Shown here one piece after another: positions 44,957-49,394 of a stretch of 49,394 nt of DNA. Location of the stretch: the IMG/VR virus record IMGVR_UViG_3300037488_001017, positions 1 through 49,394 of that record. One strand, given 5' to 3'. Under the pieces are notes generated by a model that saw only the letters and a list, made by a program, of their open reading frames with translations, did not search any database and was not told the origin of the DNA. The stretch is from a virus. The position numbers and the translations under genes are program-made. Position 1 is the stretch's first letter; each line of letters starts with the position of its first letter.

Positions 44957-46357
44957 ATGGATTGGAGACAAGACCCGCTCAATTCAATTGAGCCGACGAA
45001 GGTTGCACGTCGAGTGATGCAAGAGAGGTTCCGGGATTCAGGTGTTTACCGTTGGAGGAACGATTGGTGGGTCTGGAAGGATCACCGATGGGCTGTTCTT
45101 GATGATGAGAGGTTGAAGGATCTTGTTTGGGTGTGTTTGGAGGACGCTGTTTGGGAGAAGCCCACCAGAAATGGAGTGGCGCTGGAAAGATTTGGTCCAG
45201 ATAGGCAGAAGATTGACGGAGTGGCACGGGCACTTGAGGCGTTGGTGCGGATTGACGCGGAGATTGTGCCTTGTTGGATCGGTACACCCATTGGAGACTT
45301 CCCGCCGGGGACGACTATTGCGTTTCAGGACGTTTTGTTTAACCCACAGAACGGGAAGACCATGGGTAGGCCAAAAAACTGGTTTGACCCGGCGGTATTG
45401 CCGGTCGATTTTGATGTGGGGGCTACATGTCCGCGGTGGGAACAGGCTGTTTCGGAGTGGGGTGACGGGGATCCGGCTTGGGCAGAGCTTTTAGCAAGGT
45501 GGATGGGGTATTGCTTGATGGGAACCCGTAGATATGCGCGCTGGATGCTGATGTATGGCAAGATCAGGGGTGGTAAGGGGACAATTACCACTGTGATGAG
45601 GAAGTTGATCGGCAGGGCGGCGTTTATGAGCAGCAGTTTGGAGGATTTGGCGAATGAATTTGGCATGGATGGGTTAGAGAGGAGTAAGGTGCTGGCGATT
45701 AACGAGGTAAATGAGATGGACTCCAAGGGAGGAGAGCGAGTTTGCCGGGTTTTGAAGAATATTGTGGGTCAGGATCCGATGACTATCAATGCAAAGCACC
45801 AAAGACAGCAGCGGAACGTGGTAATTAACGCTGCTCCGATGGTTCAGAGCAATGAGATTCCGGTTTTGCCCAATAAAGGCAGGGGTCTAAGTGGCAAAAT
45901 GCTGGTTTTGCCGTTTGATGTGAGCTTTGAGGGCAGGGAAGACCTGGCTTTAGAGGATAAGTTGGAGGAAGAGTTGCAGGGAATTGCTATGTGGGCAGTT
46001 CGGGGAGCGCAACGGTTGTTGGCTGCACCTGTTTCTGATAGATGGCCGGCTCCAGCTGCGAGTGCGGATGCTGTTCGGCTGTATCATTTGCAGAACAACC
46101 CGTTTGATTCGTTCCTGAGTGCCCGGTTTGTGGCGCGCAGGGATGGATTTGTAGCAAATGAGGTGGTCAAGGCACAGTGGGATGATTGGGTGGAATCAAA
46201 CAGGATTCGCATACATGTCCCGAATAACATGTTATTTGTAAGGATCTGTCAGGAATCAAGTTGGGGATTGAGACAGACCCGGTTGCCTGAGAGTCAGGGT
46301 CATGACCGCGGGATCCACGGGGTCAGCCTAAGAAAAGAACACGCGGACGAACACTAA
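44957..46357 (+). CDS. D5-type SF3 helicase
   Basis: A 466-residue protein with the N-terminal D5_N-like part (about 1-170, including DLVWVCLEDAVW and IAFQDVLFNPQNGK), then an SF3 motor: Walker A in GKIRGGKGT (around 200), Walker B / NEVNEMD about 250, and sensor region with QSNEIPVLPN (about 290-300). The usual Arg-finger region reads LSGKMLVLPF. It probably unwinds the replication fork; no primase domain is attached. Coding strand is strongly G-rich over C (for example 23 G against 9 C in 45001-45060), unlike every other gene here, which suggests acquisition or inversion. An AAAGGA Shine-Dalgarno precedes. Confidence 0.8.
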   Translation: MDWRQDPLNSIEPTKVARRVMQERFRDSGVYRWRNDWWVWKDHRWAVLDDERLKDLVWVCLEDAVWEKPTRNGVALERFGPDRQKIDGVARALEALVRIDAEIVPCWIGTPIGDFPPGTTIAFQDVLFNPQNGKTMGRPKNWFDPAVLPVDFDVGATCPRWEQAVSEWGDGDPAWAELLARWMGYCLMGTRRYARWMLMYGKIRGGKGTITTVMRKLIGRAAFMSSSLEDLANEFGMDGLERSKVLAINEVNEMDSKGGERVCRVLKNIVGQDPMTINAKHQRQQRNVVINAAPMVQSNEIPVLPNKGRGLSGKMLVLPFDVSFEGREDLALEDKLEEELQGIAMWAVRGAQRLLAAPVSDRWPAPAASADAVRLYHLQNNPFDSFLSARFVARRDGFVANEVVKAQWDDWVESNRIRIHVPNNMLFVRICQESSWGLRQTRLPESQGHDRGIHGVSLRKEHADEH

Positions 46358-46402: not shown

Positions 46403-46835
46403 AGTAGGCGGGCCAGTACCTAGAGTACCGTATCTTTTCTTCCTAATGTATAGAAGAATATATAGAAGAAAGAGAGAACAGCCCGGAATACCCGGTTAGT
46501 AGTTATAGGATTTTGAGAAGGATTCCCTCTTTCCCCTGCTTCACAAGAATCAGACTAGGGGGCTTGGCCCCTAGGTGGGCTTTGCCACTGACTACCTGTA
46601 GTCATCTGATTCGATTCTCTCGAAACGCAACGGGGCACGTTGTAACCATAGGTTAGATCAACTCTAGTTGATTCGCTAGGAACCCTCACTACGTCTATGT
46701 AGTGAGTGGTATCCCCGCTCACACAACAGGAAGTCGGTGTAACACCACTGACTAAACCTGTAGATGTACGACGATTAGCGCGTGCTAGTCGAGTCCATCT
46801 GTACAAGCCCTTTATGGGCAGAAAGGATCTTCCAA
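46403..46835 (+). other. Gene-free, hairpin-rich leader
   Basis: About 430 bases hold no supported gene. Inverted repeats include 46555-46561 with 46568-46574 (CTAGGGG, 7 perfect), 46589-46604 (TGACTAC, 7), 46657-46672 (ATCAACT, 7), 46685-46692 with 46699-46706 (CTCACTAC, 8), a nested 46762-46800 structure (5 + 4 + 4 pairs), and 46807-46819 (GCCC) just before the Shine-Dalgarno CAGAAAGG. Upstream, an A/T-rich stretch has two copies of TATAGAAGAA (46449-46458, 46461-46470). It could be an origin, a long regulatory leader or a small RNA source. The frames that cross it lack Shine-Dalgarnos. Confidence 0.5.
46449..46470. repeat. Two tandem TATAGAAGAA repeats
   Basis: TATAGAAGAA occurs at 46449-46458 and 46461-46470 (12-base period), in a purine-rich, A/T-rich stretch with TTCTTCC just upstream. 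Possible protein-binding iterons or part of a promoter region; two copies only, so weak. Confidence 0.35.
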
Positions 46836-47192: not shown

Positions 47193-47294
47193 CCACGGCT
47201 AGCGCGTGAGCGCGGGTGACCACTCTCCACACGGGGAGTGGCATCCCGTTCCCACTCGTTGTGAGAACAACTAGTCACTAGCAGAAAGGCACGA
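47193..47294 (+). promoter_or_regulatory. Two-hairpin leader of the 103-residue gene
   Basis: Hairpin 1: 9 pairs (47220-47228 with 47233-47241, one G.T) with an ACAC loop; closing pairs CGGG (47213-47216) with CCCG (47245-47248). Hairpin 2: GTTGT-GAGA-ACAAC (47258-47271), then CTAGTCACTAG and CAGAAAGG before the ATG. It has the same order (large hairpin, small hairpin, Shine-Dalgarno) as the 47607 and 48112 elements but different sequence, so it may be a third, diverged member of the class. Confidence 0.55.
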
Positions 47295-47606
47295 ATGTTT
47301 ACAGTCGAACTTTACAACGGCGTCACCAACTGTCCCTTTGGCGAGAAGAAGGACTTCGTGTCCTTCATCGATGGGGAGAATTGGCTTCGAGGCCAACCTC
47401 GACACATCTACGGCTACATGTACGAAGTACAGAAAGTCGTATTCATCACCCGTAACCGAGGCTGGACACAGCCCGAGGGTGCGAGCTTCAAGCACATTGA
47501 ACCCACCTACTCCTACAGGCAGCGATCAACGGCACTCCCGTTGAACCATGCAATCCTGGCCAATGGTGTCGAAGATGAGAACGAGTTCAACAGCATGCAA
47601 AGTTGA
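47295..47606 (+). CDS. Hypothetical small protein
   Basis: A 103-residue protein, soluble, with mixed strands and Arg/Tyr/Trp residues (MFTVELYNGVTNCPFG). Its last ten residues (EDENEFNSMQS) and the DNA coding them resemble those of the next gene's end (25 of 30 bases identical), although the remaining proteins are unrelated. CAGAAAGG precedes the ATG. Function unknown. Confidence 0.6.
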   Translation: MFTVELYNGVTNCPFGEKKDFVSFIDGENWLRGQPRHIYGYMYEVQKVVFITRNRGWTQPEGASFKHIEPTYSYRQRSTALPLNHAILANGVEDENEFNSMQS

Positions 47607-47706
47607 ACCCAACTAAGTCCTCGCTCCTCCACTCTCAACCCCAGAGAGTGGAGATGCGTCCACTTAGGACAACCGCACCGGCGGTACCGGTACAGAAAGG
47701 CACTTT
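47607..47706 (+). ncRNA. Structured leader element, copy A
   Basis: A 100-base spacer. Closing pairs CTAAGT (47613-47618) with ACTTAG (47662-47667). Hairpin 1: 10 perfect pairs (47627-47636 with 47644-47653), 7-base loop AACCCCA, followed by conserved ATGCG. Hairpin 2: ACCGG-CGGTA-CCGGT (47677-47691) with 5-base loop, then ACAGAAAGG Shine-Dalgarno. It aligns base for base with copy B (48112-48211, offset 505; about 68 of 100 identical), and the changes in stems are compensated. An RNA structure under selection, for example an antitermination or translation element. Confidence 0.75.
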
Positions 47707-48111
47707 ATGTCACGTTACATAGTCACCAAGTCATACCCCAACGGCGTCACCATGACCTATGCATATGGGTACGACAACCCATTGCAAGAGTTCTTCCTCT
47801 CCTTCAAGGACTCACGCACCTACACAGACCAGTTCATCTGGTTCGTGGGCATGGGCGGCTGTCACCCAGGCACCAATGGTGAGATGCTCAAGGCAATCCA
47901 ATTCTTTGAGCTCTTCGACGTCATCCCAGCCGAGCACATCAAGTGCATCGGCGAAGACCGTCCTTTTCCTTGGGATGAAAGAACTATGAAAGAGGACACG
48001 CGTCCACGTTTCATCCACAAGGGCGAGGGACAGCCTCACAGAACCGTTGATCAAGAGGTTGCCCGACACCAAGATGACATGGACAACAGGTTCAACACCA
48101 TGCACAGTTGA
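47707..48111 (+). CDS. Hypothetical small protein
   Basis: A 134-residue protein, not recognised; begins MSRYIVTKSYPNGVTMTYA, aromatic-rich first half, charged second half (GEDRPFPWDERTMKEDT). The end (MDNRFNTMHS) resembles the end of the previous gene. CAGAAAGG precedes the ATG at a good distance. Its 3' end and the following spacer look like a duplicated flank with the ORF body exchanged. Confidence 0.6.
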   Translation: MSRYIVTKSYPNGVTMTYAYGYDNPLQEFFLSFKDSRTYTDQFIWFVGMGGCHPGTNGEMLKAIQFFELFDVIPAEHIKCIGEDRPFPWDERTMKEDTRPRFIHKGEGQPHRTVDQEVARHQDDMDNRFNTMHS

Positions 48112-48211
48112 TCTCAACTGAGTCCCCGTTCCCCATCACCCAACTCCAGGGTGGTGGGATGCGGACACTTAGTCCAACCGAGTAGCCGGTAGCTACACAG
48201 AAAGGAATGTT
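48112..48211 (+). ncRNA. Structured leader element, copy B
   Basis: A 100-base spacer matching copy A without gaps. Closing pairs CTGAGT (48118-48123) with ACTTAG (48167-48172), now with one G.T. Hairpin 1: 10 pairs (48132-48141 with 48149-48158, one G.T), loop AACTCCA; ATGCG follows. Hairpin 2: GTAGC-CGGTA-GCTAC (48182-48196), the same CGGTA loop. CAGAAAGG at 48198-48205 and the ATG at 48212. Compared with copy A, five pairs differ in hairpin 1 and four in hairpin 2; all remain paired. Confidence 0.75.
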
Positions 48212-48481
48212 ATGCAGTTAGGAAAGAAAGAAAGAAAAGAGGCGTTGGAAATGCTCAGGATCCTTGCCGAAGGCATTAAGACTGTATCGATTGGTGCTAT
48301 GCAGCATCGAATCCATCAGTTGCTTTGCAGTGGCAACATCACCGTCTCAGAGTTGTCAGCTCTCCAAGCCGAATTCAACGGCGTAACGGATCATCTTGAT
48401 ATGTTCAAGACCAAGATCGATGGCATGATTTACCCGCCATACGATTGCTCTAGTGTCAACAAGAAAGAAGGCACAACGTGA
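48212..48481 (+). CDS. Hypothetical small helical protein
   Basis: An 89-residue protein: basic N-terminus (MQLGKKERKEAL), helical throughout (EMLRILAEGIKTVSIGAMQHRI, FNGVTDHLDMFKTKIDG), no named domain. It overlaps the next gene by 4 bases (GTGA). A DNA- or protein-binding helical bundle is possible. Confidence 0.6.
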   Translation: MQLGKKERKEALEMLRILAEGIKTVSIGAMQHRIHQLLCSGNITVSELSALQAEFNGVTDHLDMFKTKIDGMIYPPYDCSSVNKKEGTT

Positions 48482-49316: not shown

Positions 49317-49341
49317 CAGACACAGATAGTGGCTCGCACTC

Positions 49342-49364
49342 GGTGCCGTCCTCCGGGCGGCACC
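49342..49364 (+). repeat. Hairpin near the right end
   Basis: Seven perfect pairs (49342-49348 GGTGCCG with 49358-49364) and a 9-base loop. It follows the last gene by 25 bases, with no T-tract and 30 bases of plain sequence to the window end. If the molecule is circular it is the first part of the leader of the gene at 132. Confidence 0.5.
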
Positions 49365-49394
49365 TCGCGCTCTCCCACACAACACAAAAGGAAA

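Follow-up and report, generated by a model that had tools for sequence, protein, structure and literature searches.

The window, by which we mean the whole 49,394-nt stretch of viral DNA analysed here (a linear IMG/VR virus record), raises the question of why two of its gene gaps, 47607-47706 and 48112-48211, should be copies of one another. The first-pass annotation had described them as ungapped spacers of equal length with about 68% identity, and had proposed a conserved RNA with two hairpins, in which five pairs of hairpin 1 and four of hairpin 2 change between the copies and stay paired. Both descriptions withstand a recount: the spacers are 100 nt each and match without gaps at 68/100 positions, the next-best 100-mer of the window reaching 45 matches on the + strand or 48 on the - strand, and the same pairs change, eight of them to Watson-Crick pairs and one to G-U. 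The predicted fold energy is better than that of all 200 dinucleotide shuffles for both window copies (z -4.7 and -3.5). The full repeat is longer than first stated, 133 nt (47577-47709 and 48082-48214, 72% identity), as it reaches back into the 3' ends of both upstream genes. The repeat is real, but its extent and structure had been captured in part, as the closing and middle stems, a predicted pseudoknot, a C-terminal peptide and eight more copies had been overlooked (Table 1).

Table 1. Features of the two window copies and of an adjacent structured spacer.
Feature	Position	Strand	Remark
P0001, upstream gene of copy 1	47295..47606	+	103 aa, no family, ends EFNSMQS with shared tag
C-terminal tag directly 5' of copy 1	47586..47606	+	FNSMQS and stop
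Copy 1 long interrupted hairpin	47613..47667	+	loop AACCCCA
Copy 1 stems	closing 47613-47618/47662-47667; middle 47622-47624/47656-47658; upper 47627-47636/47644-47653	+
Copy 1 H-type pseudoknot (predicted)	47672..47691	+	ACCG 47672-47675 with CGGT 47682-47685; stem 47677-47681/47687-47691
Shine-Dalgarno after copy 1	47694..47700	+	AGAAAGG, for gene with ATG 47707
P0002, gene between copies	47707..48111	+	134 aa, no family; 41% aa identity to L004_g3
C-terminal tag directly 5' of copy 2	48091..48111	+	FNTMHS and stop
Copy 2 long interrupted hairpin	48118..48172	+	loop AACTCCA
Copy 2 stems	closing 48118-48123/48167-48172; middle 48127-48129/48161-48163; upper 48132-48141/48149-48158	+
Copy 2 H-type pseudoknot (predicted)	48177..48196	+	ACCG 48177-48180 with CGGT 48187-48190; stem 48182-48186/48192-48196
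Shine-Dalgarno after copy 2	48199..48205	+	AGAAAGG, for gene with ATG 48212
P0003, downstream gene of copy 2	48212..48481	+	89 aa, no family
Neighbouring spacer, different structured family	47208..47271	+	long hairpin, GTTGT-GAGA-ACAAC, then Shine-Dalgarno

Distribution of the element among related phages

Relatives were gathered via the primase gene upstream of the region (44957-46357), giving 22 related loci (25 with a primase alignment). In total, the element is present in ten copies in six related uncultured phage contigs, window included: two in the window, two in the contig L004, one each in L002, L005 and L006, and three in L073/L024. A covariance model of the kind suggested in the first-pass annotation (R1) was trained on the five window-type copies alone (window, L002, L004; the L002 copy is included in the model alignment) and recovers the five divergent copies at 39.1, 33.2, 32.4, 31.4 and 26.4 bits (E 6e-6 to 4e-3). 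With the same model, copy 1 in antisense orientation reaches 27.0 bits, which is expected of a near-palindromic hairpin; the weakest match (26.4 bits) therefore leans also on its position and on the conserved GTCCACTCAGGACAA core. The ten copies come from six contigs of one clade and do not represent ten independent observations.

The family seems confined to this narrow clade in the collections searched. Searched as whole records, the more distant relatives tested gave no match to model R1, and the element is absent from relatives with a primase identity of 66% or less. Downstream of the primase, the gene gaps of L014 and L021 (66% primase identity) hold, in place of the element, long GC-rich hairpins with T-rich stretches after them, resembling ordinary terminators. 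Among cultured phages, the DNA search returned nothing at E 1e-5 (a 27-nt match to a Cronobacter phage, obtained with E up to 10, was discarded as chance), the terminase and a 662-aa protein had no match by tblastn, and the primase stayed below 30% identity among the matches listed. As search queries, P0001 and P0002 found no relatives, and two more protein scans yielded no additional phage. Pattern scans gave mostly chance matches, the fold being present only in contigs of the same clade. Bacterial and archaeal genomes contained no primase relatives, and the ten pattern matches found in them were rejected as chance, none having the fold (best 15.4 bits, E 0.33). The window has no match at gathering score in Rfam 15, and permissive settings gave only a chance mir-150 hit (E 1.9); as an RNA family without an Rfam match, the element is new. 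Compared to L004, the window lacks about 1 kb between its positions 49394 and 1, with a probable gene for a single-strand DNA-binding protein in it; the record therefore seems to represent a nearly complete genome in circular permutation.

Fold of the RNA and its 3' domain

All copies share one layout, in which a six-pair closing stem, a small internal loop, a middle stem of 3-4 pairs and a second internal loop lead to an upper stem of 7-10 pairs, followed by a short linker and a 3' domain. Since the closing and middle stems extend what had been called hairpin 1, this part is one long interrupted hairpin. The closing stem reads CTRAGT/ACTYAG, with TTGAGT/ACTTAG in L004 copy 2 and CGGAGT/ACTCCG in L073c, and the sequence of the upper stem is strongly divergent among the copies. 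Every pair of the closing, middle, upper and second stems is standard in 10/10 copies, with double-sided changes in each of these four stems; the eight further homologues thus uphold the conserved, covarying RNA of the first-pass annotation, as none of them breaks the pairing. Shuffling of the 3' arms among eight distinct types gave P values of 0.019 (closing), 0.002 (middle), 0.0004 (upper) and 0.0001 (second stem), which are indicative only, as related copies were treated as exchangeable. RNAalifold on the ten-copy alignment, a check likewise put forward at the outset, independently recovers the closing, middle and upper stems. In the divergent copies, the second stem is misplaced by MAFFT; there, the pair counts hence come from a hand alignment checked against the sequences. 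Across the ten copies the + strand pairs include 13 G·U and no A·C mismatches, which argues that it is the gene-sense RNA that folds, not the DNA or the other strand. On these comparative grounds the structure is well supported, as to both fold and strand. A small hairpin at the stop codon of both window copies was considered as a further part of the element and rejected, being absent from the other phages.

The 3' domain consists of (A/G)(C/G)CG, 1-3 nt, a stem of 5-7 pairs and a loop that starts with CGG or CGC. In 10/10 copies, the four or three bases that open the loop can pair with those just 5' of the stem, as ACCG/CGGT (six copies), GCCG/CGGC (L073b), GCG/CGC (L005) or CCG/CGG (L006 and L073a). 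Such tail/loop complementarity occurs in 5.5% of the ordinary hairpins of these phages. Compensatory changes are found in L005 (C-G to G-C) and L073b (A-U to G-C); L005 and L073c have the same second stem, yet differ by the C-G to G-C exchange in the tail/loop helix. RNAalifold on the MAFFT alignment selects this helix instead of the second hairpin. A loop of 1-3 nt across a stem of 5-7 bp, with no gap between the stems, is what we take to be the classical geometry of an H-type pseudoknot. Both stems hold, but they are probably not independent hairpins, as 'hairpin 2' with its loop CGGTA probably belongs to an H-type pseudoknot. The shuffle test for the tail/loop helix is modest (P 0.019) and its outermost A-U pair is missing in three copies; with 3-4 pairs, this helix may be only marginally stable.

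Gene gaps, changing neighbours and the C-terminal tag

Judged from the aligned loci, each copy takes up a gene gap between the stop codon of the preceding gene and the Shine-Dalgarno sequence of the following one. The element starts at, or at most 6 nt from, the upstream stop in 10/10 copies; the stop lies inside the closing stem in seven, adjacent to it in L073c and 6 nt upstream in the two window copies. At the other end, the pseudoknot is placed about 12-27 nt 5' of the AUG, with the Shine-Dalgarno within a few nt 3' of it (farther in L073b) and predicted to be mostly unpaired in all copies (0.57-0.83). Between 46300 and 49394, about 3 kb around the window copies, neither a + strand terminator nor a + strand promoter was predicted, the promoter scan covering the sigma-70-like type. 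Stop-codon readthrough was rejected, because the spacers are 100 nt long and the next gene is out of frame.

The element stays while its neighbours change. Between the window and L004, the element copies are 91% and 95% identical at the DNA level. Identity falls to 57% in the gene that separates them and to 63% in the next shared gene, and the genes upstream of copy 1 are unrelated. L002 and L004 carry a 95-aa gene after the orthologue of copy 2, where the window has P0003. L005 and L006 are 96% identical over 1376 bases and then unrelated, with the breakpoint falling within the element, after the long hairpin and before the pseudoknot stem. The positions of the copies and of these breakpoints are established by sequence comparison, and the simplest reading would be a recombination joint at the element. 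The L005/L006 breakpoint and the differing neighbours together suggest that the element mediates shuffling of accessory genes. As the RNA is kept while the flanking genes change, it looks like a portable control joint. A conserved spacer between exchanged genes is the reverse of the usual pattern, and such an element offers a concrete way for small phage genes to swap yet keep their expression signals.

Directly before the stop codon, the upstream proteins end in [FY]Nx[ML][QH]x in 7/10 copies, the proteins being otherwise unrelated. Tag-bearing phages are the window (at both copies), L002, L004, L005, L006 and L073; P0001 and the L002 gene have only the last 10 residues in common, and L006_g2 and L073_g3 only the C-terminal part. 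The tag was found nowhere else among 4162 stop-terminated frames (at least 40 codons) in related DNA, a count that reports specificity and not a P value, as the motif was derived from the same cases. Codon differences within the tag are partly synonymous, which suggests selection at the level of the peptide. The tag is absent in three copies, including the L004 orthologue of copy 1, and the RNA element therefore does not need it.

Proposed mechanism and alternatives

Based on the fold, the position and the exchange of neighbouring genes, we propose, with about even confidence, that the repeat is a cis-acting intercistronic mRNA element that insulates adjacent genes, sets the translation of the next gene and doubles as a joint for gene exchange. 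The setting would be an early operon in a small clade of uncultured tailed phages. Most likely, the hairpin following the stop codon would insulate both genes by blocking ribosome run-through or coupling, and would also shield or expose an mRNA end. The pseudoknot, which borders the 30S binding site on its upstream side, would set or regulate how translation of the next gene is initiated, probably by way of a bound protein. In none of the predicted folds is the Shine-Dalgarno sequestered, so any repression would need a trans factor. As each copy is a complete stop-to-start cassette, it could also supply the homology for exchange of the neighbouring genes. Insulation, translational control and protein binding are what we infer from this arrangement.

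Parts of this proposal have precedents. In the T4/T2 gene 32 mRNA, a pseudoknot bound by gp32 precedes the start of a single gene by 67 nt (PMC3014915). The element shares with it an H-type pseudoknot in a phage mRNA leader, 5' of the ribosome-binding site, but here the pseudoknot ends about 12-27 nt upstream, occurs in several gene gaps, follows a long hairpin and has no known ligand. A second phage pseudoknot at ribosome-binding sites, repeated and portable, would broaden what is known. The PeSL cassettes of T4-type phages (Arbiol 2010, Comeau 2014, as cited in PMC4503421) are likewise conserved intergenic stem-loop cassettes tied to accessory gene shuffling; as outlined there, PeSL are promoter-terminator composites, whereas no sigma-70-like promoter or + strand terminator is predicted here, and the element is a covarying RNA with a pseudoknot and a Shine-Dalgarno. 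Thus, the element is partly PeSL-like in its shuffling and perhaps gene 32 leader-like in placing a pseudoknot before the ribosome-binding site, yet it is neither.

The ESAS of cluster K mycobacteriophages are imperfect inverted repeats of about 17 bp with a 4-13 bp spacer, located just 5' of the starts of a subset of non-structural genes and of unknown function; the associated SAS is the 13-bp GGGATAGGAGCCC near starts (PMC3203893). Both are inverted repeats at the starts of non-structural phage genes, in several copies per genome. The inverted repeat found here, 5' of the start, has 24-nt arms and a 7-nt spacer, and the element comprises three stacked stems and a pseudoknot that reach from stop to start. 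The presence of ESAS follows the gene family, whereas here the element stays and the genes change. The 13-bp GGGATAGGAGCCC has 5 matches here (at most 3 mismatches) against 8.5 expected by chance, none of them at the element. The view in the first-pass annotation that the element matches neither HK022 put nor ESAS holds on the features tested, namely placement and the SAS motif. Lacking a tested defining feature of each, the element is not put, ESAS or PeSL.

As the main rival we regard RNase III-type processing, which is possible if distinctly less probable than the proposed intercistronic control element. Here the host enzyme would cut the long hairpin and leave separate mRNAs with pseudoknot-capped 5' ends. 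About 20 bp with small internal loops, placed between cistrons 1-3 times per operon, would suit such a substrate, and RNase processing would account just as well for a strong hairpin close to the stop codon. The RNase III (R) sites of T7 are also long interrupted hairpins between early genes; the element differs from them by its downstream pseudoknot and conserved flanking bases. The conserved unpaired bases and the pseudoknot exceed what a generic RNase III substrate would need.

Three further explanations are less likely still. An antitermination or anti-pausing RNA acting on RNA polymerase in the manner of HK022 put would agree with two structured stems in the early operon and with a size near that of put, an early phage RNA of about 70 nt with two stems, which antiterminates by way of the zinc-binding domain of the RNA polymerase beta' subunit. 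Its placement speaks against this, in that putL and putR are found just downstream of early promoters or no more than a few hundred nt away (PMC9378689), one per operon, whereas the element recurs between genes, in 1-3 copies at successive gene gaps. The put RNA moreover consists of two stem-loops without such a pseudoknot, and the 3 kb surrounding the window copies contain no predicted + strand intrinsic terminator, all of which makes the reading improbable.

To a nascent-peptide switch we assign an equally small chance. According to this reading, the tag would stall the ribosome at the stop codon, the closing stem would open, and the GTCC that precedes the 3' closing strand would instead pair with the GGAC that follows it. 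That the tag occurs on unrelated proteins and nowhere else in the frames scanned would fit, as would the alternative 4-bp hairpin, which is possible in 10/10 copies and has both sides swapped to GGAC and GTCC in the copy-2 type (two compensatory pairs). Against it stand the three copies without tag, a cost of 3.5-8 kcal/mol for the alternative hairpin, and its covariation, which was set aside as not significant (P 0.13, one evolutionary event). The wider idea of a peptide-plus-RNA cassette, in which the tag, translated just before the stop, steers the alternative folds of the element and controls expression of the next gene, is similarly doubtful; if true, it would put swapped-in genes under common serial control. 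Least probable of all is that the copies have no RNA function and are homology islands or DNA sites kept by frequent inter-phage recombination, as breakpoints in or at the element might indicate, since recombination accounts for shared sequence but not for the covariation and the one-strand G-U bias.

Other structured spacers accompany the element in the same phages. The family adjacent to copy 1 (last row of Table 1) has the same layout with a different sequence, and is kept as GTYGT-GAGA-ACRAC in seven phages, where the preceding genes come from two unrelated families. The untranslated leader of the operon (window 46685-46790) has a conserved hairpin, CTCACTACGTCTATGTAGTGAG, with a compensatory change in L005/L006 (CTTACGTCTATGTAAG). 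At the end of the window (49327-49394), a conserved spacer hairpin, GGTGCCGTCCTCCGGGCGGCACC, is 91% identical to L004:5018-5085, with different upstream genes. A 16-codon frame, MEDILEILDEKRDSLR and MYDILDIMEEKREKIR (L073:8072-8122, L006:9057-9106), is also kept between phages, and is located in L073 between two copies of the element.
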